Assembly (NCBI GenBank): GCA_017528425.1
Contig: JAFXOV010000031.1
Location: 1 to 64,000 of the forward strand
Direction of reading: 5' to 3'
Length of the DNA stretch: 64,000 nt
From: Elusimicrobiota bacterium
GTDB taxonomy: Bacteria; Elusimicrobiota; Endomicrobiia; Endomicrobiales; Endomicrobiaceae
Of this stretch, positions 14,995 to 62,400 are shown piece by piece; position 1 is the stretch's first letter, and the number at the start of each line of letters is the position of its first letter. Both the position numbers and the translations under genes were made by a program. The notes below the pieces were generated by a model, which made no database searches, had not been told where the DNA came from, and was given only the letters and a program-made list of their open reading frames with translations.

Positions 14995-16742
14995 TGAAAC
15001 AAAATAACATTATTTTAAACGGTATTGCAGCTTCTTCGGGTATTGCTATAGGTAAAGTTTTTATTTTGGAAGAGGACGATTTCCTTGTAGTAAAAAAAGA
15101 AATAAAATCGTCCCAAATAAAACAGGAACTTAACCGTTTAAAAGATGCTATGGCTAAAACAAAAACCGAACTTGAAGAGAATCAAAAGGAATTAAATAAG
15201 GTTTTAGGTGAAAATTATGCAAAGATTGCCGACGCACATTTGCTTATTTTAAATGACCCTTTAATTAAATCCGAAGTTGAAAAAATAATAAATACCGGTA
15301 TTAATGCCGAGTATGCTCTTCATACGGTTGTTGAAAATCTTTCCAAAACTTTTGACTTGATGGACAATGATTACTTTAGGGAAAGGAAACATGATCTTTT
15401 AGACGTGGCAAAAAAAGTCATGAGAAATCTTTTCGGTAAACAGAGAAAAACTTTAATGGATTTAGAAGAAAATTCCGTTGTTATTGCAAAGACTCTTACG
15501 CCGGCAGACACGGTTACAATGAAAGAGGCTATGATAAAAGGTTTTGTAACCGAAATAGGAGGAAAAACTTCTCATACCGCATTTGTTGCACAAAGTCTTG
15601 AAATCCCTGCCGTTGTAGGTTTAAAAGGCATAATACATCAGGTTAAACAAGGTATGCCCATTATAGTTGACGGAAATCTCGGTTTAGTCATTTTGGATCC
15701 CTCAAAAGAAACGATAGAAAATTATAAAAGAGAATATGAAATACAAATTTCAAATAAAAAAGAACTTGAAAAATTTAAAGATTTACCTGCCGTTTCTTTG
15801 GATGGCAGAGAAGTTGTATTGGGTGCAAATATAGAAAACCCCGAAGAAGTAAGATCTGCACTCAGGCATGGTGCCAATGCAATAGGTTTGTATAGAAGCG
15901 AATTTATGTATATGTCGAGAAAAACGATGCCTACGGAAGAGGAACATTATCAGAATTACAGCAGCGTTGCTAAAAAAATGATGCCTTACGAAGTTATAAT
16001 AAGAACCGTGGATTTAGGCGGAGATAAAATTGCAAGATTGGGTTTGATGGATATAGGCAGGGAAGCAAATCCTTTTATGGGGCTTAGAGCAATAAGATTT
16101 TGTTTGAAGTATCCGGAAATATTTAAGATTCAATTAAAGGGTATATTAAGAGCAGCCGTTCACGGGAAAATAAAAATAATGTATCCGATGATTTCAAGAA
16201 TTTCGGAAATAAAAGAAGCCAATAAAATACTTGAACAAGCTAAAGAAGAATTAAGGAGAGAAGGAAAAAAGTTTAAAGAAGATATTGAGGTCGGCGTGAT
16301 GATAGAGGTTCCGTCTGCCGCAATAATAACGGATTTAATAGCAAAAGAAGTTGACTTTTTATCGATAGGAACGAATGATTTAATTCAATATACCATGGCT
16401 GTAGACAGAGTAAATTCGGACGTTGCTCATCTGTATTCACCTATGCACCCGGCAATTTTGAGATTGTTGAAGAATATAATCGATTCTGCTCATTTGGCCG
16501 GAACGGATGTCGGTATGTGTGGAGAAATGGCAGGTGATCCTGCGTATACGATTGTTTTATTGGGATTAGGCCTTGATGAATTTAGTATGTCTGCGGCTCA
16601 AATACCGAAAGTTAAAAAAATTATAAGAAGTGTTTCTAAATCGGATGCCAAAGATTTGGTTGAACAATTGTTAAGATGTTCAAGTATGCAGGAAATTGAT
16701 ATAACAATGAAAAAATTCAAATATAAACAAAATCTTTTTTAG
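14994..16742 (+). CDS. ptsI: PTS enzyme I (phosphoenolpyruvate-protein phosphotransferase)
   Basis: 582 residues, normal for EI. The N-terminal HPr-binding and swivelling domains carry the phospho-acceptor His194 in GGKTSHTAFVAQSLEIPAVVG. The C-terminal PEP-binding barrel has GLYRSEFMYM, RTVDLGGDKIARL, the MIEVPSA strand, SIGTNDLIQYTMAVDR and the catalytic Cys in GMCGEMAGDP. EI takes phosphate from PEP and gives it to HPr. It is the last gene of the operon, followed by a palindromic terminator. The same fold family supplies the phosphohistidine modules of the giant protein near 50 and 57 kb, but that protein shows no PEP barrel. Confidence 0.98.
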   Translation: MKQNNIILNGIAASSGIAIGKVFILEEDDFLVVKKEIKSSQIKQELNRLKDAMAKTKTELEENQKELNKVLGENYAKIADAHLLILNDPLIKSEVEKIINTGINAEYALHTVVENLSKTFDLMDNDYFRERKHDLLDVAKKVMRNLFGKQRKTLMDLEENSVVIAKTLTPADTVTMKEAMIKGFVTEIGGKTSHTAFVAQSLEIPAVVGLKGIIHQVKQGMPIIVDGNLGLVILDPSKETIENYKREYEIQISNKKELEKFKDLPAVSLDGREVVLGANIENPEEVRSALRHGANAIGLYRSEFMYMSRKTMPTEEEHYQNYSSVAKKMMPYEVIIRTVDLGGDKIARLGLMDIGREANPFMGLRAIRFCLKYPEIFKIQLKGILRAAVHGKIKIMYPMISRISEIKEANKILEQAKEELRREGKKFKEDIEVGVMIEVPSAAIITDLIAKEVDFLSIGTNDLIQYTMAVDRVNSDVAHLYSPMHPAILRLLKNIIDSAHLAGTDVGMCGEMAGDPAYTIVLLGLGLDEFSMSAAQIPKVKKIIRSVSKSDAKDLVEQLLRCSSMQEIDITMKKFKYKQNLF

Positions 16743-29069: not shown

Positions 29070-32000
29070 ATGACCGTCGATTACAAGAAAAATATAGATT
29101 CTTTTATCAAAAAAACAGTGGAAGAAATTGAGTTCTATCCGGAAAAATATAAAATTAAAATCAACAAAATTTTAACCACGCAACAAAAAAAAGATTTGGA
29201 CAAGTTAATAGATTTATACACGGCAAGTATAGCTTATAATCCTACAGATGCATCTGCATATTATAGCAGAGGTATGGTTTATAACAAGAAGACTGACTAT
29301 AAAAACGCTCTCGCAGATTTCTCAAAAGCAATAGAGTTGGATAAAAATTTTACTTTTGCTTATATTGCAAGAGGTAAAACTTATGTGTTTTTAAAAGACT
29401 TTGCTTCATCGGAGCAAGACTTTAATAAGGCAATAGAACTTAATCCTCAAAATCCGAGTGTATATACAACTTTAGGAAACATAAGAATAATTCAAAACTT
29501 ATTTAATGAAGCCATAGAGTACTTTAATAAAGCAATAGAGTTAAATTCGGGAATAGAATCTGCCTTTTACGGACGAGCTATGGCACATAGAGGACTATTG
29601 CAATATCAACAAGCAATAAAAGATTTCACAAAAGCCATAGAATTAAACAAAAAAGACAGTTATGCATTTTGTAACAGAGGAATAACTTTTGCCAATATTG
29701 AATGTTTGGACGATGCAATAAAAGATTTTGATGAAGCATTAAAACTAAGGCCGGAAGACGTATATATTCTTAACAACAAAGGTCTTGCTCACAGAAAAAA
29801 ATTGGAAGAAGATGCTGCCGAAGAATGTTTTAAAGCTGCCATGGAAATGATGCCTGAGGACAGTTATGCTTATTACAATTTGGGTAATTTACACAGAGAA
29901 CAAGGATTAGATGATAAAGCTTTCAAACTTTATTCCGAAGCAATAGATTTAGATTATTCTTTTGGTCCGGCATACATTGCAAAAGCGAGTATTCTTATTT
30001 CTAAAAATGAAATTCAAAAAGCGGTTGAAGAACTTCTTCAAGCTATAGAATTTATGGATAAAAGCTTTATCTGTTTTGCATTTTTAGGATACATAAACAT
30101 ATTAAACGAAGATTATAAGAACGCTATTATAAATCTAAAAAAATCGATAGAAATGGATGAATATAAAAATCCTGAATTGTTTTATTGTTGCGGTTTAAGT
30201 TATTTCTTTACGGACGATATTACTGCGGCAGAAAGCTATTTTGTAAAGGCTATAGACCTTTCTTATGAAACTCCCGAAATATTGTTTGCGTATGCAACAT
30301 GTTTAATTAAGTTAAACAAATATGGCGATGCAATAAAATACCTTACGGAAATAATAGAAAAAGATCCTTCGATTATCGAAGCATACTATTGGAGAGGAGT
30401 TTCTTATACGAATATAAGAAATTATAATCTTGCATTAGATGATTTCAGAAAAACCATAAGTTCGGACTATCTGTTAAAGGAAAGTAACTTTTACTTGGGA
30501 CTTTGCTATTTAAATATATCCGAAAACAACAATGCTTTGGAATATTTTGATAAAGCGGTTTCTTTAGGATATGATGATGTGTCGGTATACAAAAAAAGAG
30601 CATTGGTATTGGCAAAGTTAGGCTATAATGATAAGGCTTTGGATGATTTAAATAAAGTTTTGGAACAGAAGGGAGATGATGCCGAATCTTACCTTTGCAG
30701 AGCAAAGATACTTGTTATTATGAAACTTTATGATGAAGCCGAAAATGATGTCGTTAAAGTTTTGGAAATCGACGGAAGTAATCAAGAAGCTGTATTGTTG
30801 AATATAAAAATTAAATTCTTAAGAGAAGATTATGAGTCTTGTATCAGTTTTGCATCTGTTTTCTTAGAAGAAAATTTACAAAATGTAGAATGTTTAAAGT
30901 TAAGAGCAGATTCTTATGTTAAAGTTGAAGAATTACAAAAAGCTCTCATGGATTATACAAAAATAATAACATTGGATCCCGAAAAAGAGGAGTATTATTT
31001 AAGAAGAATAAATATATATATTAAGATGAAAGCATATTCCGAAGCTTTGGCGGATATAGATTTCTTGTTAAATATCGATGATAATAATGCATGCATATAT
31101 TTTTACAAAGGGATAATAAACAGAAACAGAGGGGAAGTTATCGATGCATTAAAGAATTATGATATTGCATTGAAAATTCTAAGCACAAACAAAGTTTTAG
31201 ATTTGGATAGTGAAATATTGGAAACGAAAAGATATTTTTATTCCGAAAAGAAAAAAGTAAAAGAGAAAGCAAAAACAAAAGAGAAAAAAAGTTCTTCCAG
31301 AAGTATATTCGGTATTAAGAAGAATACAAAAAGTGTAGCAAAACAAGACGTTGTTGTTGAAGAAAAGCAAGAAATTAAACAAGAAATTAAAGAAAATATT
31401 ATCGATACCGAAAATGAACGTATAGAAGACAATAATAACGTAAATACAAATGTAAATATAAATACACCGGAACCAATTTTGTCCGAAGAAAAAGAGTTTA
31501 CGGTAAGTAATGAGCAAAATAGTTTGGTTGCAGAATCAAAAGAAATAACAAACGATATAGTTCCCGGTGAACAACAAAGTCCAAATATTGAAGAAATTGT
31601 TGAACCTCCAATTCAAGAAAAAGTTGAAACACTTGATGAAAACAAAGAGGTTGTGACCGAGAATGCAGTTCCTGTCGTTCCGGAAGAAAACAACATTACT
31701 CCTGTTGTTGATAAACAGACGGAACCTAAAAAAGAAGAGGTTTTTTATGATATTAAACAGTTGGACAAATTGATAAAAGAAAATAAAACAAATTCTTTAT
31801 ACTATCAAAAAAGAGCAGACTTATATTTTGAACAGTCAAAATTTAAAGATGCAATAAAAGATTATGACATGGCAATTAAATATTCCGAAGAAAAAAGTCC
31901 GGAATTATATAAAAAGAAATGTAAGGCTTTTACGGCATTAAAGAAATATAAAGATGCAATAGAAAGTCTTAACAAAATTATAGATATGGGTGAGGGTGAT

Positions 32001-33497
32001 GCCGATTTATATTATGAAAAAGCGTTGTTATACCAATCACTTAAGGATTCATCAAATTATCTCAAGAATATAAATTTGGCTTTGGATTTTGACCCGACGT
32101 ATGACGATGCCTATTTGTCGAGAATAAATTATTATGTTAGTAAAGCGGAATATCTTGATGCTTACAGTGATGCGAAACAAGTAAGCGGTTTTGAGTTGAA
32201 GGTTGACAATAAATTTTTGTTGGCCAAAATCTGTTTTCAATTAAAAAAGTATTCGGAAGTTATTTCTTTGTTAACTTCCATATACGAAGCAAAAAAACAG
32301 GAAAAAGAAACGGATTTTTATTTGGGTGTCAGTTTTGCTGAAATGGGGGATTATGAAAATTCCGTTAAATATTTAACCAAAGCAATGGATAGCGGGTATA
32401 AAGATAAGAGATTGTTCTATTTCTTGGCAAAAGCCAATTTTAATAAACAAAACTTCAAAGTTGCTTTGGATTTCTTAAATAATGCCATAAAAATGGATTC
32501 TTCAAATTATGAATACTATTGGACAAGAGCTAAAGTATATTATGAATTGAATAATATAAAGTTATCATTGCAAGATTATACTAAAGCCGTAAAACTCAAT
32601 TCCAAGGATAAAGACTTGTTGTTGGAAAAGATAGATATTTTGGAAAAGAACAACAAAAAAGAGGATGCTGTATCTGATTATTCCAAGTTGATACAACTTG
32701 ACGGGAAAGACGGACTTTTATTTTATAAAAGAGGTTTGATGTATCAACAGCTGGGTAAAAAGAAAGAAGCCGAAAAGGATTTTTCTCAAGCAAAAGCTTT
32801 GGGAATAAAACCTGAACAAGATGAGATTACCGTTGATATTAAAAAAGAAGAAATTATTACCAAAGAAGAAATAATTGAAACTAAACAAGAAGCAAAACAA
32901 ATTTATCAAAATACTCAAACACAAAATATTCAAACCGAACAAGCTGCATATCAACAGCAAACTATTGATAACAATAGAATTCAAGAACTTAAACAAATGA
33001 ACGAGAACGAAATGAAGGCAAATACCGGAAAAATAAACGCATCTGCAAGTATGATACATTTGAACAGAGGTAATATAAATTTCAGAAAACAAAAATATGA
33101 AGAAGCTGTTTCGGAATTAGATAAAGCGGTTTCATTTAACTATAAAGATCCGCAATGCTATCTTTTAAGAGCAGAAGTTTATATTGAAATGAAAAATTTT
33201 GATTATGCAATAAAAGATTTGCTTATGGTTATAGAATTATCTCCTAAAGCCACTTTTGCGTATTCGAAGATAGCAGATATTTATAAAATGAATAATAATT
33301 TTGAACAGGCAAAATCTTTTTATACAAAAGCAATAGATATAAATCCGAAGTTTGCTTCCGCATATTTTGGTTTGGCTGAAATTTATGAAAAGAACAAACA
33401 AATAGATTTAGCTATTGAAAAATATAAAGAAGCTGCAAATCTTGACGTAAAATTGGCGAAAGAATGCCACATGAAAATAGCTGAATTAAATTCTTAA
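29070..33497 (+). CDS. 1475-residue cytoplasmic TPR-repeat protein
   Basis: No signal peptide or membrane span. Roughly residues 40-715 hold about twenty consecutive TPR-like units (for example YKNALADFSKAIELDKNFT, LFNEAIEYFNKAIELNSGI). A charged, disordered-looking linker follows (about 720-890), with a Lys-rich basic patch (EKAKTKEKKSSSRSIFG) and then Glu/Val/Asn-rich sequence. A second TPR block runs about 890-1240, a Gln/Thr-rich spacer about 1245-1320, and a short third block to the end. Such proteins are scaffolds; the client is unknown. Repeat units share DNA similarity, which risks assembly error and copy-number change. It is followed after one base by the ankyrin gene. Confidence 0.92.
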   Translation: MTVDYKKNIDSFIKKTVEEIEFYPEKYKIKINKILTTQQKKDLDKLIDLYTASIAYNPTDASAYYSRGMVYNKKTDYKNALADFSKAIELDKNFTFAYIARGKTYVFLKDFASSEQDFNKAIELNPQNPSVYTTLGNIRIIQNLFNEAIEYFNKAIELNSGIESAFYGRAMAHRGLLQYQQAIKDFTKAIELNKKDSYAFCNRGITFANIECLDDAIKDFDEALKLRPEDVYILNNKGLAHRKKLEEDAAEECFKAAMEMMPEDSYAYYNLGNLHREQGLDDKAFKLYSEAIDLDYSFGPAYIAKASILISKNEIQKAVEELLQAIEFMDKSFICFAFLGYINILNEDYKNAIINLKKSIEMDEYKNPELFYCCGLSYFFTDDITAAESYFVKAIDLSYETPEILFAYATCLIKLNKYGDAIKYLTEIIEKDPSIIEAYYWRGVSYTNIRNYNLALDDFRKTISSDYLLKESNFYLGLCYLNISENNNALEYFDKAVSLGYDDVSVYKKRALVLAKLGYNDKALDDLNKVLEQKGDDAESYLCRAKILVIMKLYDEAENDVVKVLEIDGSNQEAVLLNIKIKFLREDYESCISFASVFLEENLQNVECLKLRADSYVKVEELQKALMDYTKIITLDPEKEEYYLRRINIYIKMKAYSEALADIDFLLNIDDNNACIYFYKGIINRNRGEVIDALKNYDIALKILSTNKVLDLDSEILETKRYFYSEKKKVKEKAKTKEKKSSSRSIFGIKKNTKSVAKQDVVVEEKQEIKQEIKENIIDTENERIEDNNNVNTNVNINTPEPILSEEKEFTVSNEQNSLVAESKEITNDIVPGEQQSPNIEEIVEPPIQEKVETLDENKEVVTENAVPVVPEENNITPVVDKQTEPKKEEVFYDIKQLDKLIKENKTNSLYYQKRADLYFEQSKFKDAIKDYDMAIKYSEEKSPELYKKKCKAFTALKKYKDAIESLNKIIDMGEGDADLYYEKALLYQSLKDSSNYLKNINLALDFDPTYDDAYLSRINYYVSKAEYLDAYSDAKQVSGFELKVDNKFLLAKICFQLKKYSEVISLLTSIYEAKKQEKETDFYLGVSFAEMGDYENSVKYLTKAMDSGYKDKRLFYFLAKANFNKQNFKVALDFLNNAIKMDSSNYEYYWTRAKVYYELNNIKLSLQDYTKAVKLNSKDKDLLLEKIDILEKNNKKEDAVSDYSKLIQLDGKDGLLFYKRGLMYQQLGKKKEAEKDFSQAKALGIKPEQDEITVDIKKEEIITKEEIIETKQEAKQIYQNTQTQNIQTEQAAYQQQTIDNNRIQELKQMNENEMKANTGKINASASMIHLNRGNINFRKQKYEEAVSELDKAVSFNYKDPQCYLLRAEVYIEMKNFDYAIKDLLMVIELSPKATFAYSKIADIYKMNNNFEQAKSFYTKAIDINPKFASAYFGLAEIYEKNKQIDLAIEKYKEAANLDVKLAKECHMKIAELNS

Positions 33498-43850: not shown

Positions 43851-44324
43851 ATGAAAAGTATTTTAAAATGTGCTTTATCGTTTTTTATCCTTTTCTCGAC
43901 GATAGATTTATCTGTTATAAATTTGTTTGATAAATTTTATTCGGATATGGGAAATAAGACATCTATTTCTGAAATTATAGAAATAGAGTGTGATTTATTC
44001 TATCATGCGAAAAATGTAGTAAAAACAGTATGCAACAATATTGCAAAAGATGTAGAGATTTTGTTGGCGCCGACACAAAACAATAAAATGTTTTTTGATA
44101 TTGATAAGACGGATAGAAGAATATATACGGACAATTTTTTCAGTTGGTTTAAACTTGTATTGGCGGTGTCGGTATTAAAATCAATTTCCGTCGATACTAA
44201 CGGTAAACTGAAATTGTTTTTCTTTGGGTTTATATTTATTTTTATATTAAAATATTTGGGATTGCTGTTTACCTTCGGTAAAATAGCTGTCTATGAACAA
44301 TATAAAAAGGCATACATCATGTAA
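43851..44324 (+). CDS. Small membrane protein upstream of the giant gene, unknown function
   Basis: 157 residues from ATG 43851. An in-frame ATG at 43833 overlaps the -10 of the promoter and has no ribosome site, so the later ATG is chosen; neither has a good Shine-Dalgarno. The N-terminus (MKSILKCALSFFILFSTIDLSV) is a signal-anchor. The middle has MGNKTSISEIIEIECDLFYH and two Cys. The C-terminal half holds two hydrophobic helices (FFSWFKLVLAVSVLKSI and LFFFGFIFIFILKYLGLLFTF). No family recognised. Its stop lies within the loop of the hairpin at 44304-44343, and the giant gene begins 40 bases after it, so the two may be functionally and transcriptionally tied. Confidence 0.7.
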   Translation: MKSILKCALSFFILFSTIDLSVINLFDKFYSDMGNKTSISEIIEIECDLFYHAKNVVKTVCNNIAKDVEILLAPTQNNKMFFDIDKTDRRIYTDNFFSWFKLVLAVSVLKSISVDTNGKLKLFFFGFIFIFILKYLGLLFTFGKIAVYEQYKKAYIM

Positions 44325-44343
44325 AAATGATGTATGTCTTTTT
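44304..44343 (+). terminator. Terminator-like hairpin between the small gene and the giant gene
   Basis: Seventeen paired bases (core GGCATACATCAT with ATGATGTATGTC, one G:U), a six-base loop holding the small gene's stop, then TTTTTT. It ends only 21 bases before the giant gene start, leaving no room for a separate promoter after it. Transcription of the giant gene must read through it, begin inside the small gene, or be controlled here as an attenuator. Confidence 0.75.
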
Positions 44344-44364
44344 TATTTGTTACGGAGAAAAAAT

Positions 44365-44469
44365 ATGATGATAAAATTTTTTAAGGAAAGGTTTAATTCA
44401 ATAAAAATCTGTGCGGTTTTTACTGCCGTTTGTTTTATGGTATCGACATTGGGTGCAAATTTGTATGCT
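44365..44469 (+). other. Signal peptide of the giant protein
   Basis: Residues 1-35: a basic start (MMIKFFKERFNSIK), a hydrophobic core (ICAVFTAVCFMVSTLG) and ANLYA before a probable type I cleavage site. It predicts Sec export, which sits oddly with the ATP-dependent modules further on. Confidence 0.8.
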
Positions 44470-47400
44470 CTTCCTATGGCAGAAAACACAAACAAAAAAT
44501 ATGAAGATGTCTTTAATAAAACAGATTGTATAAGCAACGAATACGGGAAAATAACATCGAGTAAAGATAGTAACAGTAATATAACCGTAATAAATATACA
44601 AGATTTACATTGCCATCCTCAAACACAAAGAAATATATCAAAAATAATTGCTCAGATTGCCGATAAATATAATTTAAAGAAAGTCTATGTCGAAGGCGGA
44701 TACGGTGATATAGATGTAAGTTGGTTAAATTCAATAAAAGATGAAAATATAAGAAAGCAGGTAATAGAAAAATTATTGAATGAAGGAATGCTTACCGGAA
44801 GTGAATATTATAAATTAACAAGTAATAACGATAAAGTTGAGTTAAAAGGTATAGATGAAGAAAGTATCCATAAAGACAATGTAAAAAGGTTGTCCTGGAT
44901 AATATCCCAACAAAACAAATACAGAAAAATCACGGAAAGAGTGAATAAAGAAATAGAAATATTGGAAAACATACATATAAACGACAGAAACAAAAGATTC
45001 AGTAAAAGTATAGAGGAATATTCTTTAAATAAAATAGACAGCAAAAAATTTTACAAACAACTTATAAAGTATGTTAGAGATATAAATACAAATCCCGAAA
45101 AGTATAACAATATAACAGCAATAAGGTTGGAAGATTATCCTAATATCACTAAATTTATGACATTAAGAAAAGTGTCAAAGGATATAAATATAAAACAAGT
45201 AACTCAACAGTTACAAATAATAGTAAACGAATTTAAAAACAGATTGCCGTATGAAATATATACAAGATTTTTAAAAGAAACCGAGAATTTAAGTAACAGT
45301 CAGAAAGTTTTGGAATTAATAACATTATTGTGTGATAAAGAAAATATTAACTTGGAGAAATATAAAGCATTAAATGATTTTTTACAAACCAACTCCATAA
45401 CAAAAAAATTAAATCCTATAGAATTGGTTCAGGAAGAAAGACAATTAGTAACAGAAATAAGAAAAGCTCTTTCATACAATGACGAAGAGTATGAAATAAC
45501 ATTCCTGTCTGATTTCAATAAATATTTTCAAGATTATTTGGAATATAAATTGACGGATGCAAGTTGGAAATATTTTGAAAAACATTATTCGGAATTCAGA
45601 CAAACATACGGGAAATATGCAACCATAGACAGAATAAAAGAAATAGAAGATGATTTTGTCGAAATAAATAAATATTACGATATAAACGATCAAAGAAATA
45701 ATATCTTCGTAAAAAATTTGCTGAAAGGCGAAAAAATACATTTGACGTCAACCGATAAACTAAGACAAGAAGATGAGATGTTAAAAGCTTCGAAAGATGT
45801 AATAATTGCCGTAACCGGAGGTTTCCACAGCAGCGAATTGGAACAATTGTTGGCAAAAAACGACGTAAATACCATAGTAATAACTCCCAAGATATATGAA
45901 GATATAAAACAGGCAAACGATAAATATATCGAACTTATAGGCTTGCAGAGCAGAGTAAAAAGTCAGGCTTTATCATATACTATTTTATCGTCGGTAACTG
46001 ATGTTGATAAACAGAAAATACTGGTGTCTGTAGTAAAAGATATTTTTGGCGGAAACGAAGAAAAAATAAAAGAAGTTTTGGGAAAAGATGTAGATTTAAG
46101 TCTGTCATATGAAGAACAAAATATAAACGCAAAAGAAAAAAATGAAATAAGAAATATAATAGAAACCGCAATAGATCGGGTTTTAGCTGTCATTCCTCAA
46201 CAGGGTATGAAAGATGTTTTTGTTCCGAATATAGACGATATAATGTTGAATATGGCGGAACAATTGGTTAGACATGGCTTTTATTTTAGCGAAGGAATGA
46301 TATTTGACATAGAAAACTCAAATTTAAAAGGACAAAATTTAAGAGGAATACCTGCGGAAATTTATTCAAGAATGTTGCCGAGTTTACAGAAAGCTTTATT
46401 TAAAGTTTCCGTACAAGAAAATTTTGAGCCGAATGAAGAAAATCAAGGACTAAAACAATCCGATGATGCACTGAAAAAACAATTCTCGATTTTTGCTCCT
46501 TTATCCGACAGTAATAAAGTGTTTAATACATTGTCTAAAATACCTCATATTTGGGAAGAAATAGCGTTTAGAGTAATTCCCGTAAGTCTTGCTGTTCTTT
46601 CCATGTCTTTTCCTGCAATATCTTTTTTAAGTATTCCGATGGGCTTAATATTTTTCACGATATGTCAAAACCAATTTATAAAAGCACACAATATAAGTAC
46701 ATGGATAAAGGAAAATAATTTAGATTGGAAAACTTCGGATATTCTGCTGGCAACTTTATTTAATATTTTCCCTGATAAAGATTCAAAAGAGAAATTTAAT
46801 ACTGATGCAAAAAAAGCAGAAATTAGATCCCAAACAAGATCAAGGTTTTTGCCGACGATTTTATTGTCCGTTCCGTATTTATATTCCATGCTTTTCGCAC
46901 CGAGTATTGCTGTGGTCGGATTAGCTGCTGTTACAGGTGCTTTTGTTCATAAGTATTTGAATTTAATATTAAAAAATAAATTGAATATATTTGACGAGAT
47001 AGGTATAGTTACTATGTCGCCCGATGATGATTTTAAAATAGATTCAAATTATACCGTTTCGTTGAAAAACAGTGATGATGCACAAAAATTGTTTTTGGTA
47101 TTAAACGGCAGAAAACTCTCTAAAGAAGAAGCCGAAATTTTGACAGACATTATTTTAAGTAATGTTGAGCAATATGGATATTTTATAGGCCTTTTACAGC
47201 AAATAAGAAACAGGTTTATAGGAAATGCTGAATTGTTAGTTGAAACTCTTGCCGAGAGAATTGATATAACAAACACTAATCAACTTAATCTTTTTAAAGC
47301 AATCTCCGAAAATTTGATTTTGAAATGGAAAACTGTTTTGCCTGCACTTTTTAGAAGGTTGGATTTAAACAATGATGCAAATGTCTCATTGATAAAATAT

Positions 47401-50400
47401 TTTATATCCAAAAACCCGTACAATTCCGAGTTAAGTACCATAATAGTGGAAAAAGCCGATTTTAAGAACAAAAATCATTTGGTTATATTAAATGATTTAA
47501 AAAGTATTAATGACGATGTCTTGTCCGCATTGATGAATAAAGCAGATATTAAAAATATAGAACATGTAAACTTGATATTAAATTCATTATTGAAAGCAAG
47601 TTACTTGTTTTCTTTTCAAAAAGTTTTGTCCGATATAATGAAAGAAATTAATTTGTCCGATAAGCAAACATTAGAAGTCTTTTCTGCCTTTATGAGAAAC
47701 AACGGACATATTTTGGACGACAATAATATTAAATTACTCATACAAAAAATAAGTTTTGAAGCAGATGAACAGATTGAATTATTAGAGTCTGTTTTAAAGA
47801 AAAATACTGCTAATATTGACCTTGTTTTTGATATTTTGCTCACTAACAATATTAATCTCAATGATACAAGATACAGCAAAATATTTAAAATAATAATTGA
47901 TAAAATGTTATCTAAATACAGTTCTTATAAAGATGCAAGGAAATATTTTGACAAAAATATTTTCTTGCTTCCGGCAAATTCCGTTCAGGGAAAATATGCA
48001 TTCAGCTCATTAATAGATTTATTACACAACGAGTTAATTGCTCATCAAAACAGACACTTAAAAATAGTTAACGGTCGTATGGTTGTTAGAGTAAAAGAAG
48101 ATGGAACAGATCCTGTTCTTGATAGTATTTTCAGATTTGCACAGGATATTGAAACACGAAAAGAAATGTTTGATTCCGAGTTGAAAGCAAGATTTGATGG
48201 CTTTATGAGAGATTTGAATTTCTTAAAAGAAATGGAAAGCAGAACCTCTAAAAGATCATATACAAGAAATCGTAAAGTTACAGATTCCATAGCAGACAAT
48301 TTAACAATAGAAGAATTTTGTAAAGAAAAAGGTTTTTCTTTAATGAAACAAACACCGAATGTGTTTTTTGACAGCAGAAGATATTCTTTTACCGGAGTAT
48401 TAAATTTTATTTCCAAAAAACTTTTTGGCTTTAGACCGAGTCATCATAATCCTACATATATTATGACAACAAATACCGTAGATGCCGAAAAATTAGACGG
48501 AGTTATTTCTCAGTTTGATGCATACATGAATTTGTTGGATGAAAACTTGTATATATTGAATAAAATTGACGGCTTAACCGCTTTTGATTCTCAATTTGAT
48601 GATGTGGTAAATCATATAATTTTAATGATAGATTACTTGGAACAAATTAGTTATCATGGAATTTCTTCATTTAGAATGTCTTTGAAAAATATATTGGAAG
48701 AAATTAAAAATAATAATACTACAATTGCGGAACAAAAAAAGATTATAGAATCTCAATCAGGTAATTTAATTAAAAATATACTGACAATAAATACTCTTGT
48801 TAACAGAATCCATCAACAGGCAAATATGTCATTTGTAATGACAGTAATGAGTTCTTTGAGTGATTATGAAAATGCCGGTTACAATACGTTGGTTTCAAAA
48901 AACGATAACTTAATATCCGTATATAATTTGTCATCGAATGATATATCGCCGCAAGTGGAAAAGTTTTTATCCGATTTGGCGGAAAACCCCGATTTTTCAA
49001 CGGATGTAAAAACTCCGATTTTTGTAAAAGATAATATTGTGTTGTGGGTGGCAAGTTTAGGTGTACATTCCGTAAGAATCCTTATAGATTTTAATGAAGA
49101 AACGAAATCGATTCTTGTAGATTTTCACGAAGGAGCAATAGGCGATGGAAACACTACCAGAATAAAAATGCTTGATGACATTTTAACAAGTATGGGCTTT
49201 AAAGTTGAAAAATCTATTCAGGAGTTTGAATCAAGACGATTACCGGACGGAATTGTTGCCAAATTAAATAAAGATGTCGGATTAACAAACAATATGGACT
49301 TTAGTAATGCGGCAAAACAGGCTTTAATTCTTTTTAACAATTCTGCTTCTTTGAATAATCTTATAAGTAACAAATTTCAAATGAAACATAATATTGATGT
49401 TGCAAAACTTGCGATAATGGATATATATTCAAGATACTATGCATTGAGTTATATAAGAAGCAATTTCGTTAGAACAAGACTTAATACCAGAAGGAATCTT
49501 AATAAAATTTTAAAATCTTTAGAGTTACCTTTAATTCCGAGAAAAGAGCAGGGTTTTTGGACGTTTTTGAAAATAGGAAGAATAACAGTAGGCTTTATAA
49601 AAACATACGGTCAAAATACGATAGATAAATATGTAAATAAACCTATAGAACAAGCATTTGCCACGGGATATTTGAAGATAAACGATAAAGGTGAATTGGA
49701 AAGAAATAAGGATTATAATCCTATAGCGAGTATGAGTGATAAAATGAAAGATATTCTTGAAAGTGAAGTCGGACAAGCGGAAGAGATTGATATGTTGGAT
49801 CAGGGTGCACTGGTATCGCAAATGCCCGAGGGGGAAATGAATTTTAAAACAGTCGGTCAAATAGGCGGATATGTTTTAAAAACGGGATATATAAAGTTGA
49901 ACAATGGAAGATTGGATGAAAACACTAAAGGGGAATTTTTAGCGGTAACAACTTTAACCGATAAGAACGGAATAATAAGGTATACTTCAAGTGAAATTGC
50001 AGGATATCCCGAAAATATGAACACAGAATCCGGAAGAATGAAATTGAATTCACAACAATTGGAACAAATACTTAAAACAGAAAGATATGACATAAGTTCT
50101 GCAGAAAAGTTAACAAACTCAGAACTTTTAAATTACAGGTCAAAAATACAAGAAACAATAATCAAAGGTGATGCTCCGGTTGCTTACGGAACAATGATTT
50201 CGTCACCGAAAGAACAAAAAAATACTGTATTTGCAAGATTAGGCGAAAATACTAGAGAAACAAGTTTATATATTGATAAATATGCAAGTCCCGAAAATGT
50301 GACGGAAGCATCTCAATACGATGTGTCATTATTTGCCGGTGGTTCGTATTCAAGCCATGCCGGAATAGTTTTAAGAGAATACGGAAAAACAGCCATGATA

Positions 50401-53400
50401 GTAAACGATTCTCAAATGGTTGATAAAAAGATGAGAATAAAGTTTTATCAACCTAAAGGAGCTGTCGTTCATACCGGAAACTTGGAAACTTTAGAGACGG
50501 AAGAACATGAAATAGAATTAGAACCCAACGATATCGTATTAATAGATATACGCAATAATAAAATGATATTGTTTGAAAGTAAAATGTTTAAGAAGAGAAA
50601 AGTCGGGAATATTTTATTTGAATTACAGAGATATATAGATAAACAAAATGTTGAGAAAGTAAAAGATTTTATTAATAAATATAAAAACAGTACCATAGCA
50701 GACAAGATTATAGAATACATATATTATCAATCTGCGGATAATCCGTGGCTTGAGCCTTTGTTGGATGTTGATACCGAAGCATACAGAACACAGCCTTCCG
50801 TAATAACACCCAGAACCATTGTAAAAAAAGTTTTACAAATAACGGACTTTGTTAAACATACAAGCAGAAATGCCGTATACAAATTCGGAGAAAAACAATC
50901 TCTCGATGCTTCAAAAGTCGGAACAAAATCGGCAAATCAATCAAAATTATATTTAGCTTTAGAACAATTGAAAAAAGAAACGGGAATAAAAAATGTTGCT
51001 GTTCCCGAAGGCTTGGTAATCGGTTATGACATTTTAGAAAAGTTGTTAGGTGAAAGATATTCTGAATTATATGCCGAATTGGAAGCGGTTGTCACAAACG
51101 ATTTCTATAACGAAGAGGAAAGAAATGTAAATATTCAAGATATAACGGCGGAAATAAAAATTTTAATACAAAATTTATCCGAAGAAGATATTATAAATTA
51201 TATAGGAACAGAGAATTTAGCGTTGTTTAAAAATAAACTTGCAATAGTAAGATCTTCCGGTGTGGGGGAAGATTCTCAAGAATATTCTGCAGCGGGAATT
51301 GCCGAAAGTTTCGGTTCCGTACAATATGATAATATTTCCAAAGCCGTAAAAGATACTTTGTTATCTTTCTTCTCTTCAAGAGCCATGGATTATATGGTTA
51401 AATCTTCAAATATTATAAAGCCGGCAATACTTATAGAGGAATGGTTGGAGGCTGATAAGGCCGGAATAATGATGAGCGAAGATACAAACGGTATGAGAAT
51501 AATACAAGCCGTAAACGGACAATGTGACGATGTTGTTTCCGGAAGGAAAACTCCATATACTTTTACGATAGATATAAAAAGCGGGACAAAAATTGACGGG
51601 AATTATACAAATGCAAAAACATTAACGAACAAACAACTTGAACAACTTACAAGAATAATGGAATGGTTGGAACAAGCAGAAGGAACTCCGGTGGATATAG
51701 AGTTTTTAATAAATAACGATGTTATTTATATCGTTCAGGTAAGACCTATAACCACATTAAAAAAACAGAGTTTAAAAGTATTGCCGAGAAGTTTGTTTAC
51801 AAGCGTTGAATCTGCTTATGAAGCTTTAAATTTAAAACAAAAAAACAGATTATCCAAAGATATAGAAACAATAAAACAAAATTTTAAACAATATAAGTAT
51901 AATGAATCCGAAATTGAAGGTTTGTTAAGGGATTTTGTTAAAGCGGAAAAGAAATTTTTGGATGCAGATAATAAAAATTATAATGTTGATTTAACTTCTC
52001 TTATAAAAAGCAGAGAAGATTTGGTCAGAATAACAACCTTAATAAAAGAATTATTGAGATTGAAAATAACTAAATTGGAAACAGAAAACGAAATGTTGGG
52101 ATTAAAAATATTTTTGAATCCCTCTTTCAATCGTATTATAAACAGAGAATTAGAAGATTTCTTCGATAAAGGAATATCATTTGTTCAAAAGTATTATATA
52201 GCATTGTCGATATCAAGGTTTTTAGGCGGTATTGTTGATATAAGTAAATCGGATTATGATGCTGATCAATTTAATGATATCGTTAAAGTTGCTACGGGAA
52301 TGTATATAGCAGCTTTGGAAGATCAAAAGGATAGAGTTGTGGCCGATAAAAATACAAGGTTTATTTCTCTTGCTGCGGTCTCAAGTTATGATCAACCTTT
52401 TGAAGATTCCGGACTTAAAAAATTATTGGAAGTGATGGGTATACCTTACGATTCGGATAAGGTTTCACTTATTAATGCGGATTTTGTTCCCGCAACAGAT
52501 GCAAAGAGTGAATTTTTAAGACAAATAGCCGCACTACAATCCGAAGAATCTGTTTTCATTTCTTTTGACGGACACGGATTTCCGGATTCCCTTGAAGTAG
52601 GATTTAATGCCGATATATCGAGTGAAGAATTTGCAAAAGCTTTAATTCAAGCATATAACAACGGAATGGACTTAAGTAAAATAACAATTAATTTAAGTTC
52701 ATGTTTTTCGTGGTATTTTGCAGACAACATTTATGATGCTTTAAATAAAGAATTCGACAGGTTGGAACAAAAAGGTAATGTGGTTAGCAGACAATTCCCT
52801 GTAATTTGGGCTTCTGCGGGACATGAAACAGTATATGGTTATTCTACATACTATAGGGATAACGATAAGTTAACTCCGATGAGTAACGAGTGGAACGGCT
52901 TGTTGACTTCGATATCACAATCCAACCCTGAAAATATAACCATCAAAAATCTTTTACAGGCAATGACTGTTGTGGGATATTCTAATCCCACATTGTTTGT
53001 ACACAGTGATTTTGTTCAAAAGGTTATTGAAAGCGGAACGGAACAAATACTCGAAATAGACAGCAGAAATAAAACATTTGAACAATCTTTAACGATAGGA
53101 GAAAGATTTAAACAACTTTTTAAAGCAAAAAAATTACATAATAATCATATTAACTTTTTTGAATTATCAATCTTTGCTCCGTTAAAAGATGAAAACAAAC
53201 TTTTTAATATATTGGATAAGACAGCACATATATGGGAAGAAATATTTTTTAGAACACTTCCTATAGCTTTAACCCTTTTACCTGTAACATCGTTCATATC
53301 TGTTCCGTTGACTTTGATTTTGTTTTCACTTTTACAAATACAGTTTGTAAGAGCACATAATATAACTTTATGGATAAAACACAATCAACTCGATTGGTCA

Positions 53401-56400
53401 ACAGGTGAAATTTTAAAAGCGGTATTGTTTAATGTTTTTCCTTCGGAAGAATCTAAACATTTGTTCAATTTCGATCAAAAAATGTCTCTTGAAGAACAAA
53501 CTAAGGGAAGAATTTTATCTGCGATAGGATTATCTGTTCCGTATTTAGCTTCGTTATGGCTTAATGCAAATATTCCTGTTATAATTTTAGCTTCTGTTAT
53601 AGGTATTGTCGTTCATAAGGTTTTAAATTATTTTTCAAAAGACAAAAAAGAGTCGAAAGAATACGAAGATTTCTTTGCAAAATTTTTGGATGATACCGAT
53701 ACTCCTTTACCGTCTTTGCAACAATTTTTAGCAGACAAAGAATTCATTGATTTGAGAGATGAACAACAAAGACAAGAATTAGTTGAAATTTTGGACAGAC
53801 TTGAATTATCCGAAGAAGAAACTTCGGAACTGGCAAAAAAAATAGATTTAAATGATATAAATCAATATACATATTTATTGAAGACTTTTTCGGAACAGAA
53901 AGGTTCTTTAGCAAATAACAGAATGCAGATAATTACCAATTTAGTTCAAAATGCCGATATCAACAATAAAACTCACTTTGAATTTATTCGTAAACTTTTG
54001 TCGGAAAATCAATATTATCGTGTTGATTTAGATACATTATACATACTATTGGAGAAATTAGATTTTAGCAATATTGATCATGTTATGTTGTTAACCGATT
54101 TCTTAAAGTCACAAACATATGACAATAGTTTACAAAATATTGCTTTTAACAGTGCTGTTGCGGAAAAACTTGATGTTAATGATCTTAACCAATTAAAGAT
54201 GTTGGAGCTGTTTTCCGATATAAATGACAGTGCTTTATCTTATTTGGTGTCAAATTTTGATTTTACCGTAAAGAAGAACCTGCAACCTTTCTTTACAAAA
54301 ATTGCGAAATACAATGTTTTACATAAAGGGAAAATACTGGATTTAATACTTGCCAAGTTGAATTTGAAAAATCCTTACGAGTTTAAAATGTTGTTTGGCC
54401 TTGTGAAAAAGGAAGAATCTCTTAATCCTTTTGTTGTAGAGAAAATTTTCAAAGCATTGGATTTTACCGATAGAGACCATTTGGAATTGGTGAAAAATAT
54501 AGTAAATAAAGAAAATGTGGAAGTGTCCGTCCTTGATTTGTTTGCGCAGTATTTTAATATGGGAAATACTAATCATGTGAATATATTAAGAGAATTGTGT
54601 AAAAATATATTTGAAAAAAATCAAAGAGACTCGCATATTGTTTTATACAGAAAAGTAAAAGAAAAATTTGATGAGTTGAATATTGCCGATATGAGCGATA
54701 AAGATAAATATATCTTTCAATTCTTTGCAAACGAGTTGATGATAAGCATGCAGGAATTATTGACGGATATACAGAACGATTATATCGAAGCTAAAGATGA
54801 TAAAATGATAATAGCTTTGATCGGACCTCAACAATTTGATGCAATAATCTATATGATAATTATTTTGACGAGCTTTGAAAGTATATTGTCAAAAGAAACA
54901 CTTGACAGATTTACAGGTTTAAAAGAACAAATAGCTTATTTTGAAAGAATGAGAGCGGAAGATGTAACAATAGAAGAATTTGCCGAAAAATACGGATTTA
55001 AAGTTTTGCAGGAAACACCGAATGTATATTTGAGTAGTGACAGATATCCGTTTACGAAAGTATTGAGTTTATTACCAACCGGAATTTTAAAACACAGAGT
55101 AAAAAAACTTGCACCGACATATTTTATAGAAAAAGAGGAATTGGAAAAACAAAGTTTAAAAAACATATTGAACAAATTTGATTCTTATATGAAACTTCTC
55201 GATGAAAATATGAATGTGTTATATAAATTTATGGGCTTAACCGCTTTTGATTCCCAGTTTGATGATGTTATAAAACACATAAATTTAATGATAGATTATT
55301 TAGCTGCTTTTAATACTTCGGATGCAAATTATTTTAGAAAAGTATTAAGAGATATTTTGAATGAAATAAAAGCCGGTAAAACGACAGTTGCCGAACAGAA
55401 AGCTTTCTCAACGGGCAGAGGTAAAACCGTTAGTGATATTACAACGATACATCGGCTTATTAACCGTATTCATCAACAGGCAAATATTGATTTTGTTATG
55501 GCTATAAGACACAGCGCTCGTTCATCTGCGAATAAAGTTCAAAATGTGTTTGTCACAAAGGGTGACAGAACAATAAAAGCTTATAACCTGTCGGAAAACA
55601 AAATACATCCGAATATTGAAAGATTGTTATCTTTATTGGCGGAAAACCCCGATTTCTTGATCAGAAGAGATTCTCAAATATTTATTAAAGACAATATATT
55701 TTTATGGAACGGATTGTTAGGTGATCATTCGGCAAGAGTTTTAATTGATTTTAACAGAGAAAATGAAAATATATTTATAGATTTTACGGAAGCTGACAAC
55801 AATTCTGCAAAAAGTCAATCAAGAATTTCAACTTTAGAAAGAATGTTAAACAATTTTGGGTTTATCGCAAAATCATATAACAACAAAGCTAATTTGACTG
55901 CAACCGTAAGTAAAGACTCCGGTATAACAAACGATACGGATATTTGCGAAATGGCACAAAAAGCTATGGCTCTTTTAAGCAAAGCTACTTCTTTATACGG
56001 GAAAAATACCCCTATAGAGATAATGGAACCTGCAGTTAATGATATCAATTTCTTCAATAATATTTTGGACTATTTACAATTGCCTTTAATTCCAAATGAA
56101 GAAGCAAGTTTAAGAGTTAAAAAGATATTTTTGCTTAAAAGAAAAAAATATACACTCAGTCAACAAACAATAGATAAATATGTAAATAAACCGATAGAAC
56201 AAGCATTTGCCACAGGATATTTGAAAATAAACGATAGAGGTGAATTGGAAAGAAATAAGGCATATAATCCGATATTAACGATAAAAAATAAATTAAAAGA
56301 TATGCTCGATACAGATTTGGGACAAACGCAAGAAACGGATATGTTAAATCAAGGAGCAATAATATCTCAAATACCCGAACAAGAGATGAATTTTACCAGT

Positions 56401-59400
56401 GTCGGTCAAATAGGCGGATATGTTATAAAGACCGGATATATGAAGTTAAGAGACGGAAGACTTAATAAAAACAGAGGAGAATTTTTAGCGGTAACTACAT
56501 TGACCGATAAGAACGGAATAATAAGATACAGTTCAAGCGAACTTGTCGGATTTGCGGATAATATGAATAATGAAACCAGCAGAGTAAATTTAAATGCCCG
56601 ACAATTAAAATTAATATTGGAACAGGAAAACTATCCGATAAATCTTGCGGAAAAATTTACAAACGGAGAACTTTTAACATACAGAAACAGATTAAAGGAA
56701 AATATAGTAAGTACAACAACACCGACAGCATACGGAACAATGATATCAACATCCGAAGGCTTAAGAAGTGTTTTGGGAATTGTAAACGGTGAATCTGACA
56801 GTAAAGGTTTATATGTTGATAAATATGCAAGTCCGGATAATGTTACGGAAGCAGCTCAATATGATGCGTCATTATTTACGGGCGGTTCATATTCAAGTCA
56901 TGCAGGAATCATCTTGAGAGAATACGGAAAAACAGCCATGATAGTAAATGATTCTCAAATGGTTGGCGGTGCGTTTAGAATAAAGGTTTATCAACCTAAA
57001 GGAAATGTAGATAATGACGGAATATTTGAAACACAAGAATTGCAGGAAAGTGAAATAGAGTTAGGCCCCAATGATATAGTGTTAATAGACAGTAAAGACA
57101 ATAAGATGATGTTGTTCGAACAAAAAGTATTTAAGAAGGGTAAAACAGGAAATATTTTGTTTGAATTACAGGAATATATAGATGGTCAAGATGCGGATAA
57201 AGTAAAAGAATTTATTAATAAATACAAAGATAGTACCATAGTAGACAAAATTATAGAGTATATATACTATCAGTCTGCAGATAACGTATGGCTTAATGAT
57301 ATATTGTCCGATTACGATAAAAAAGGTATAAGTGCTGTTGATTCTGCCGGTAAAGCAGAAAGAATTATCAATAAAATTCAATTAAACTTCAATTGGTTTT
57401 TACCTCATTCCGATAGTGCCAATGTATACAGGTTCGGAGAAAAAGAATCTCTTGATGCTTCAAAAGTCGGAACAAAATCCGCAAACCAATCCAAATTATA
57501 TTTAGCAGTAGAACAATTAAAAAAAGAAACCGGTATAGATGATGTAAGAGTTCCAAACGGTTTTGCGATAGATTATACAATCTTGGAAGATTTATTGGGG
57601 CAGGAATATGTAAATCTGTATTCTCAGTTTAGCTCTATTGTAAGAAAGAAAAACAAAACCGAACAGGATTTACAAAACCTTGATGAAATAAAAGCCCGAA
57701 TAGTTACACTTATAAACGGTATCAGTAATAACAAAATAAAAGATTATATCGGTAAAAGAAATTTAAAAACTCTAAAAGATAAAGTATCCATAGTAAGATC
57801 ATCCGGAGTGGGAGAAGACGGAAAATCGTATTCCGCTGCCGGTATAGCCGAAAGTTACGGAGAAGTTGAAGCCGATAATATTCCTCGTGCTATAAGAGAT
57901 GTTTTATCGTCTTTCTTCTCGGATAGAGCAACCGAATATATGGCAAAATCCGGACATATTATAAAACCTGCCGTTCTTATAGAAGAATGGGTTGATTCCG
58001 ATAAAGCAGGAATTATAATGAGCGAAAATTCCGAAGGAAAAGGAATTATTCAGGTTGTAAACGGAATCGGAGAAGATATCGTTTCGGGGAGAAAGACTCC
58101 GTATACTTTTGTAACAGATATTGAAACCGGAGAAAAAATCGACGGTAATTATACCGGTGAAGAATCTTTATCTTCAGCTATGGTTTCAAAACTAACCAAA
58201 GTAACAAAATGGTTGGAACAAGTAGAAGGTGTACCGGTAGATATAGAATTTTTAATAAAAGGCAATATTATTTATATTGTTCAAGTAAGACCTATAACGA
58301 CACTTGATGATTATACCGAAGAAACAGAAGTTGAAACCGAACAACAAGAGGAACAGGAAGAACAGCCCGGACCGGCAGATGAAATTGCCGATGATGCAGC
58401 TTTTGATGTTTCCGATGAAGATTTTTTCCTTGGAGATTTTACTCCGTTTAGAACCGGTAAAACAGCGGATGCAAAAAAATCAAAATCCGCAGCCAAAAAG
58501 ATAAAAGGGAAAAAAGGTAAGAAGAAAAGAAATATAAAATCCGCCAAAACAATAACTGGGGTTCATACCGGTGATCATTTAATTAATGACGATATTCGTC
58601 AACCGGTAGGACGTTCACAGAGAGATGTTATAGAAAGTAACAAAAAATTGGCACACTCGAAAGATCCTTCAGACAGTTCTTTAAATTTGAATACAGATCA
58701 AATAAAAACTGTACTTATGAGTTTTGGCTTATCAAAAGAAGAAGTGGAAAATATTGATTTCAGTGAAGGTTTGCCTGATGATGTTGTTTCATTATTAAAA
58801 AATACAAATTCGCAGGTTACGGGAACAACTATAGACCCAACGAAGAAATTAATGGATAATTTAAGAGAACATCCGATATTGTTCTCCTTGGCTATAGAAA
58901 CTTTTCTGAGAGTTTATGAAAAGGCTCTCGGCGGTTCCAATGCAACATTCGGAGATCTTTTGTCATTTATAGAACAGAGATATTCAAAAAGACTTTATGA
59001 AGCAACGTGTACGGATTTAAGAGGCTTTTTTGGAGAATACTATGTTGCCAACACCTTGATTGCAGGTATTATCCCCGATAAAAGAGCCGGCCCTATAATA
59101 ATAAGACCTATGTTACCTACCGACGGAAGCATAATGGGATATGATGTTTATAGTCCTGTAAACGGTGATAAATATCAAGTCAAAACGGGCGGAAGCGAAA
59201 TTGTTCATAAACATTTCGGTAAATATTGGTTTAATCTGTTGGATGTTGTAAAAGGAATTTGTGCTATTCCGGTAATAACCACAAAAAATGTGAAAGAAAA
59301 CAGTTTCAGAAACGATGACAGAGTTCAAGCTATGGATGTTACTACGGAAACAGTAACAAAATTTGCTCACGAATTTGTAGCTGCTTTACACGGAATTGCT

Positions 59401-62400
59401 TTTAAGACGAAATATTCTTCGGTAAGAGATTTAAAACTTACCGATTTAATAGATAATTTTAAAGGTTTTGATACGGAAAAGAAGATGTCCGTAGACGAAC
59501 TTATGAACTTGTTAAACAAAAATTATACGGGTGCCGTAAAAAAAGAAAAGAAGACTATGAGAGTTATTCCCGTAAATGAAACAATAGAAGTTGCTCCCAT
59601 AAGGTTAAAAACAGACTTTATTATAAATCAAGATATAGTTGTTAACGTAAACGCCGAACAATCACATGTCCTTTATATTGACGGTGAAAGTATTTTTGTT
59701 AATGAAGAAGGAAAAGAAGAAATAACGGAAGAAAATTGTTCTTTATACGGTATACAAAAAGTAGAATATGATGATGACGGATATATTTCATATATAACAT
59801 TTAATGAAGGTGTTACAATAAGTACTTTAAATTTTGACAAAAAACCGAAAGGTTCGGCTGCAAATAACGTTGAATTCTCCGAACAGGAAATAAAAGAAAT
59901 GAATTCCGATACGGGAACCGACGGAGTGATTAAAATTTATTTGGATGACGATGTAGATACAATTTGTCATTTAATTAAGGAAGCGGCAAAAAGTAAAAAA
60001 TTGATAGAATTCCATTTCTTTAGAGAAAGTTTTAAAACATCAGATTTAACCCAGAGTCAACTTTTGGATGTATATAAAAATATAGCAACGTTAATTTCCA
60101 ACAGATTCCAAATGTCCGATATTTTTAAGAGTTCCACTGATTATTCTAGATATACGGATTACGGCTTGGACTTTTTCTTAACCGAAATATTGAAAAATTC
60201 GTTGCTTCAAGGAAATTTGGGAAAGGTGGAAGAACCTATAGCAATGTATATTGATTTGGATGGAAAAGAAGAAGTTAAAGGTTTTTCTATATATAACAAA
60301 GCAAAAGAGAATAAAGAAGCCAAACTTGATAAAGGAAGAGAAACTTTGGCAATATCGGCACATTTGATGCTTAACGGTGACAGTAAGAGTACGGAAATAA
60401 TGACTCTCAACCCTGTAAGAGAGTATGATTTTGATGAAGAATATGAAATAGGTAACAATGAATACAGAAAAGCTACGGTATCTCTGAGAGATGAAATAGA
60501 TATGCAATTATATCATTTGGAACGAGATTATAAAAAATCCGAAAAGAATGTTTCGATTACGGATGTCGCATTACAAACGGATTCTACTGTTGCGGAATTG
60601 TACAGATTGGGTATTGAAAAATATAAAAAAGAATATTTGGAAGAAACAGGAAAAACAGAAGATGAATTAACTTCCGAAGAGTTGATTGCCATAGACCAAA
60701 AAGCAGAAAACTACAGATTTACTTTTGAAGGTGTATTAAAGGGTGTAAAGATTGAAAAATATTCCTTCTTCTCGGAAAAATTCTTGCCGTCTCACAGCAA
60801 ATTGACACCGTTAATGAAAACCGGTGTTGTGATAACAAAATTATTGGCTGTAAGTATAGGCGTTATGGTAACGGGACTCTCTTTTACCCTATTGTCAATG
60901 CTTGTTTATTCATTAATAACCAAATCCGTTGTTATTGTACCTTTAGTCCTTTCTGCTATATCAGCATTTTTCGGAACGATGGCTGCTGTTTATTCGGGTG
61001 AGTTATTTCATCTCTTGTGGAATGTTGTTGCTGTTATAACCAATAATGAAAAATATCTTCTTCAAACAGATATGAGTATAGCCGATGATTCCCAAAAAGG
61101 AAAAGGTTTCAATCATCCCTTATCTAAAATCTTAAGACCTATAAATTTAAGAAAGGAAATACGAGACAGTGAAATACCGTTAACATTTGTGGAACAGGCA
61201 AAACTTAACGGTGCGGAATTTATTTCAATTTACGATCTTGTTAAATATCTCGGAAAATTAAAAAGAAAAGATTTTAGAAATAATGAAGGTATTGAAAAGT
61301 ATAGATCAAGAACAAGCGGATATACGTTCTTTATGCACAAAGATTATTATGAAAGAGAAAACAAATATGTTGAAGACAGTTTCGGCTTTGCATTGGGATT
61401 GAGTTATGTTCCTGTTTTTGACGGATCAAAAAGAAAAGTAAATTTGGTCCGCGGTATTTGTGAAAGAAATAATTTGGTTTCCTGGGAAAGAGGTTACGAA
61501 TATTTTTACGGGAAAGAATATTCTGCAAAGACGACCGAAGAGTATATGGATAAAGTAAGAGATTTGACTTTGGAGTATAATAAGAAAATAGTATTCTTCT
61601 TACCGAAAAACTTATTTTCACATGATTTTTCGTTTAAAACAAGAGAAGAACTTGAATATATACAGCAACATCCCGAACTTTGGGACAAAATTGTATTAGT
61701 TTTCGGAACATACGATTGCTTGAATATACAAAATCAAGAGACTTTTAATCGGTATTTCAATGATAACGGTTCTCTTGAAGATGAAATGAGATTCTTTTCT
61801 ACAATGAAAAGATTGCTTTCAAATCCTAACCGTTTTATGATGGTAAAAGATAATTTAATTACAAAATTGGAAAGTAAAGGACTTGTAAAGTTTTTCAGAA
61901 ATACATTCTCATTGTCTTTAGACGGAATGGTTAAAACAGCGGAAGTTTTAACACGTTTGGAATATTCTAAGAAACAGGATCGTACCGAAAACACTGATGC
62001 CGTATCGCGGTTAAGAACGGATATTGAAGAAAATAATCGAAGACAAGTATGCTTTATATGTACGGCAAATATAAACAGAAGTGCTGTTTCTCATTTGTTG
62101 TTTGAAGACAGATTGGCGAAATTAGGTGTAGATAATATTTCGGTAGTTTCTGCAGGATTGTTACCTTTATCCGAAAAGAACACCGATGCCTCTCTTGCTT
62201 TAGGACAGGATTATGAAAAAATCCTTGAAGATTTTGATGTTGAACCTGAACTTATAGAAAGATTCCGTTCGGAAGAATTTTCTAAAAAACATGCCGGTTC
62301 CGATTATTTTATAGTTGTAAGTCAAAAGCATAAAAATGTTTTAATGGAACAATATAATGTCGATCCCGATAAAATTATTTTATATTCGGATCTTGATCCT

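Follow-up and report, generated by a model that had tools for sequence, protein, structure and literature searches.

PEP synthase and PPDK combine an ATP-grasp domain and a swivelling phosphohistidine (His) domain with a PEP/pyruvate-binding barrel, in the order ATP-grasp, His, barrel. A giant protein of approximately 6,600 residues from a rumen bacterium of the phylum Elusimicrobiota (giant protein A) carries the first two domains twice, in reversed order and barrel-free, which raises the question of where such units would deliver their phosphate. Few bacterial phyla are as rich in huge proteins as the Elusimicrobiota, whose huge proteins were all left without a functional category in a published survey (PMC11573180). 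One recurring part of these giants can now be linked to a candidate activity, the conversion of ATP to AMP and Pi via a phosphohistidine.

Layout of the giant gene

The analysed window consisted of 64,000 bp (C43:1–64000) of a genome of 2.08 Mb. A genome scan revealed its closest relatives among rumen Elusimicrobiota of the Endomicrobiaceae, in the genus Ca. Ruminimicrobiellum and its neighbours. The giant ORF extended in a single frame on the forward strand from 44293 to C43:64140, and the gene thereby runs 140 bases past the window, adding 46 further residues. M25 (ATG 44365) is the likelier start of the gene than the ATG at 44293, since a GGAG lies just upstream of it, a hairpin and T-run (44310–44345) separate it from the preceding ORF, and orthologues begin there. 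Residues are numbered here from the first ATG (44293). The preliminary description counted from M25, and its numbers are 24 lower; its His1998 and His4179 are the H2022 and H4203 of this numbering, while its count used the likelier start. The following features could be assigned:

44365–64000, continuing to C43:64140, forward strand: giant gene A, 6,591 amino acids (aa) counted from M25
44365–44475, forward strand: predicted Sec signal peptide with a hydrophobic core and an LYA end, kept in orthologues
44359–45933, forward strand: NT domain with an INIQDLHCH motif, common to Elusimicrobiota giants (bounds of the profile match, which overlap the signal peptide)
48388–50124, forward strand: X (UP) block of unit 1, a helical bundle plus an alpha/beta domain, with invariant N1504, H1507, Q1508, H1592 and R1623 (profile, alignment, AlphaFold2)
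50155–50577, forward strand: phosphohistidine swivel domain of unit 1, catalytic H2022 at 50356–50358 (match to 2fm4)
50863–51765, forward strand: ATP-grasp (PPDK_N) domain of unit 1, with K2212, R2320, E2470, Q2482 and R2484 (Pfam; match to 5hv1)
55045–56661, forward strand: X (UP) block of unit 2, with NRIHQQ at aa 3724 (profile match)
56698–57120, forward strand: phosphohistidine swivel domain of unit 2, catalytic H4203 at 56899–56901 (bounds by register with unit 1)
57418–58329, forward strand: ATP-grasp (PPDK_N) domain of unit 2, with K4395, R4502, E4652, Q4664 and R4666 (Pfam and profile matches)
G000:C23:18286–32766, reverse strand: second giant gene, 4,826 aa, with the same NT domain as giant A and two X-His-ATP units (L006, L008; profile matches)

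The NT domain of giant A had no Pfam match. Two CPBP/CAAX-protease-like membrane segments with a WEExxFR motif (46540–46962 and 53215–53637) lie upstream of each X block, and the pair is probably part of an internal duplication of approximately 2,200 aa. Between units 1 and 2, a clan CD-like cysteine peptidase segment could be seen (52360–52842; DGHG at aa 2759, SSC further on), for which the Peptidase_C13 match was weak (E 0.0014). A low-molecular-weight phosphotyrosine phosphatase domain is present near the C-terminus (62047–62451, E 3.6e-7), and genome G077 encodes a 12,027-aa giant that has a fragmentary LMWPc match as well.

Reversed domain order and the X block

Pfam analysis of giant A revealed PPDK_N at aa 2208–2494 (E 1.6e-29) and at about aa 4391–4686 (E 1.1e-31), each preceded by a GGSYSSHAGI motif that holds H2022 or H4203. 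The PF00391 matches of its swivel domains were weak (E 0.12 and 0.036), whereas those of the second giant were clear (E 1.8e-9 and 4.9e-16); the swivel loop of giant A reads GGSYSSH, compared with GGxxSH. An AlphaFold2 model was built on 33 aligned units (mean pLDDT 81.6, pTM 0.80). In structural alignment, its residues 588–728 corresponded to the PPDK phosphoryl-carrier domain 2fm4 (Z 10.8, rmsd 3.4, 114 aligned) and its residues 824–1124 to the RPH ATP-grasp 5hv1 (Z 19.1, rmsd 2.9, 278 aligned). Since the 2fm4 match stands before the 5hv1 match, a PPDK-type swivel His domain truly precedes an RPH-type ATP-grasp in the predicted structure. The permuted pairing, which the preliminary description had proposed for both pairs and had wished to see checked by structure prediction, was thus recovered. 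Its reading of two intact active sites was likewise upheld, as the catalytic His and the ATP-site Lys, Arg, Glu, Gln and Arg are present in both units.

The barrel family PF02896 could not be found in giant A by Pfam analysis, which included the 3' part beyond the window. A barrel in that part had been a candidate; the ORF stops 46 codons past the window without one, so the absence first noted for the two copies holds to the 3' end. Genome-wide, PF02896 gave only two matches, PTS enzyme I (window 15756–16634) and a PPDK on contig C34. The reversed order, the missing barrel and the intact active sites together make it most likely that the phosphate goes to an acceptor other than pyruvate, as had been suggested earlier. 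A barrel is also missing in RPH and HpeHI, where the acceptor is another molecule (PMC4844700, PMC12167813).

The unit had been described as a His/ATP-grasp pair. The pair stands, but a block of approximately 550 residues ahead of each His domain, conserved along with it, had been overlooked; the module is therefore X-His-ATP. Residues N1504, H1507, Q1508, H1592 and R1623 were invariant in 33 aligned X blocks, most of which share only some 25% identity with the first row, that of the window. Comparison of the X alignment with Pfam and PDB sequences gave no credible relative, and the fold searches gave no convincing match (Foldseek best E 0.04; VIA best Z 5.8, which is noise level). A fold similar to YbjN or type III chaperones recurred at Z 3.7–4.9, also noise level, and was rejected as fold evidence.

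Aligned by profile with the C-terminal domain of 51 Desulfobacterota/Myxococcota proteins of the order ATP-His-X, the X block scored 54.3 (E 7.6e-6); the 60 column-shuffles reached 19.6 at most, and the reversed profile reached 20.4. When the alignment was extended, the five invariants of X fell on R, H, E, H and R, each found in 51/51 of these proteins, with the correspondence of N1504, H1507 and Q1508 appearing only on low-stringency extension. The aligned invariants point to a second polar site common to two families which use the same three parts in opposite orders. The helical start of X also matched the N-termini of the Desulfobacterota proteins weakly (score 37.7), but one shuffle reached 131, and this match was discarded. 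The X block is the best candidate for holding the phosphate acceptor site in place of the PEP barrel, and it may represent a new acceptor-type domain that also occurs in an uncharacterised dikinase family of sulfate reducers.

Spread, conservation and known relatives

The preliminary description dealt with the two pairs of giant A. The module is not confined to them, as two more units of the same X-His-ATP order are present in the second giant ORF (4,826 aa) of the source genome and others occur across the Elusimicrobiota. In a search of the phylum, the module profile was found in 39/198 genomes and 17/64 genera, where some of the genome matches are the ATP-grasp part alone, including in ordinary PEP-synthase-sized proteins. 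The giants that were mapped range from about 3,000 to 12,000 aa, and the X-His-ATP order was seen in every unit in which all three domains were detected. Among 47 Elusimicrobiota units, the catalytic His and Lys2212 were kept in 47/47 and Arg2320 in 46/46, while Glu2470, Gln2482 and Arg2484 were each kept in 44/44 of the units covering them. The catalytic His, K2212, R2320 and E2470 correspond by position to His825, Lys22, Arg117 and Glu297 of RPH (PMC4844700). Comparison of unit 1 with locus L017 gave a dN/dS of 0.19 over 1,137 codons, indicating purifying selection. Judged from sequence, X-His-ATP is a conserved candidate enzyme family rather than a peculiarity of a single genome.

In a tree of ATP-grasp sequences, rooted at the midpoint only, the giants were separate from the canonical families. 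The search beyond Elusimicrobiota consisted of one pattern-seeded genome scan and one viral scan, and the latter gave no relatives of the module on viral contigs. No description of the module was found in the openly readable papers that were searched. In the source genome, an 856-aa protein (G000:C45:21046–22188) has a PPDK_N domain with no swivel or barrel match. Beyond the 3' end of the second giant gene lie a YchF-type GTPase gene and, further on, clpP, clpX and lon. The giants of G077 (12,027 aa) and G124 (10,270 aa; L110–L115) combine a dikinase unit with lipase, glycosyltransferase, APH kinase, M20 peptidase, AAA and RecJ-type DHH domains.

The reversed order without a barrel is real, but it has a precedent in the plant glucan, water dikinases: in GWD and PWD the C-terminal domain is PPDK_N (PMC11986951), and the essential catalytic phosphohistidine lies ahead of it (PMC12892837). 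These barrel-free enzymes differ from the giants in being eukaryotic plastid enzymes that act on starch. Membership in the GWD group through its own phosphohistidine family (GWD1_pHisD, PF22973) was ruled out, as this family had no match in the genome even at E 10, and starch-binding modules CBM20/CBM45 were absent from giant A at E 0.01 in Pfam. What appears to be new is the predicted X-His-ATP module inside giant proteins that bear signal peptides.

The ATP-grasp of the unit was nearest to RPH and PEP synthase in both sequence and structure. RPH (5hv1, 5fbs; PMC4844700) shares the ATP-grasp fold, the Lys/Arg/Glu set, the swivel His, the lack of a barrel and, most likely, a non-pyruvate acceptor, but it is a free enzyme of approximately 870 aa in the order ATP-acceptor-His, with a RIF-binding domain as acceptor domain instead of X. 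The full-length RPH model NF041857 reached 60 bits against a cut-off of 999 bits, with only the ATP-grasp part matched. The two-component aryl kinases HpeHI/CreHI/PpsAB (PMC12167813) likewise combine ATP-grasp and swivel domains with a non-barrel substrate domain, and the HpeI structure 9goj matched the unit at Z 14.8; they are made of two polypeptides with an RPH-type substrate domain, whereas the unit of giant A lies in one ORF. The Desulfobacterota/Myxococcota proteins also have an ATP-grasp, a swivel His domain and an X homologue in which H, H and R are invariant, but their order is canonical and they are free-standing, about 870 aa long and often present as three per locus (L045–L075). 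A conserved cluster (L047:634–12217, with similar ones in L045–L075) consists of TauE, Alph_Pro_TM, an ATP-His-X dikinase, a response regulator, a sensor kinase and two more dikinases. At L063:2599–6472 a dikinase is split over two genes, of which the first encodes a 570-aa protein with a swivel His domain at its end and the second a 274-aa ATP-grasp protein, and an MFS transporter gene is adjacent; the ORFs of locus L066 resemble these in size and order.

Proposed reaction and alternatives

Each X-His-ATP unit probably forms a swivelling dikinase that is complete in itself and belongs to the PEP-synthase/RPH superfamily, with reversed modules and with X instead of the barrel as acceptor domain. 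The domain order, folds, key-residue conservation, purifying selection, missing barrel and homology of X to a canonical-order family were computed; catalysis, the products AMP and Pi and the acceptor role of X are inferred from the superfamily. ATP bound in the ATP-grasp domain would phosphorylate His2022 (or His4203) with its beta-phosphate, releasing AMP + Pi. The swivel domain would then shuttle between ATP-grasp and X, bringing the phosphate to an X-bound acceptor, and the invariant His/Arg/Asn/Gln set of X may take part in this second transfer. The overall reaction would be ATP + acceptor + water to AMP + Pi + phospho-acceptor via a phosphohistidine. A new dikinase substrate is possible.

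The acceptor could also be a protein: His2022 would hand its phosphate to one of the invariant X histidines, H1507 or H1592, or to a different domain within the giant, which would act as a phosphorelay or self-modifying machine. The two invariant histidines, the YbjN/type III chaperone-like folds that came up repeatedly, if weakly, for the X core, the phosphatase domain in the same chain and the sensor kinase and response regulator adjoining the Desulfobacterota relatives are in line with this; the structural resemblance, however, is noise (Z under 6), the conserved Arg and His would equally fit small-molecule phosphate binding, and we regard a protein acceptor as unlikely. A bacterial counterpart of glucan, water dikinase, phosphorylating an X-bound polysaccharide (glycogen, starch or another glycan), would share the domain order (PMC11986951, PMC12892837), a large multidomain protein would go well with a substrate on the scale of a polymer, and a glycogen-branching-enzyme-like gene lies within the window. 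The lack of GWD1_pHisD in the genome and of CBM20/CBM45 in giant A, the nearness of the ATP-grasp to RPH/PEP synthase and the match of the swivel to the PPDK carrier domain leave it distinctly unlikely.

That the domains are degenerate or structural leftovers, kept in a giant mosaic with no catalysis, is very improbable given the retention of all key residues in 44–47 units and the low dN/dS, even though Elusimicrobiota giants are patchworks of unrelated enzymes and giant A has an altered swivel loop. Hardly credible is a PEP-forming enzyme that would borrow its barrel in trans from the PTS enzyme I or the PPDK of its cell: two separate barrels do exist in the genome, and in a published study the PEP source was unclear for some Endomicrobiaceae lineages (PMC11257099), but the giant already has a conserved partner domain in cis, it has a signal peptide, and no gene linkage was seen.

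The dikinase reading also has to accommodate the predicted Sec signal peptide, which was present at the start of all giants with an intact N-terminus. It is odd for an ATP user, as the giant would end up outside the cytoplasm, away from ATP, if no internal membrane segments led the chain back in. CPBP-like hydrophobic segments are located at aa 757–792 and 856–886, between the signal peptide and unit 1; an odd number of membrane crossings by these would leave the dikinase facing the cytoplasm. As giants of relatives carry other cytoplasm-type enzymes (RecJ DHH, glycosyltransferase, AAA), the question of the membrane side is a general one. A bolder extension, which we consider doubtful, is that X-His-ATP forms a separate dikinase branch with its own class of acceptors (cell-envelope, host or protein) on Sec-exported giants, with His phosphotransfer taking place on or outside the membrane, twice per chain.

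Two large repeat proteins are also encoded on the same contig. A 1,475-aa protein consisting almost wholly of tetratricopeptide repeats is located at 29070–33494 of the window, and a 1,376-aa autotransporter-like protein with many GGAI-type repeats is located downstream of giant A (L005:10956–15086, equal to C43:70956–75086).
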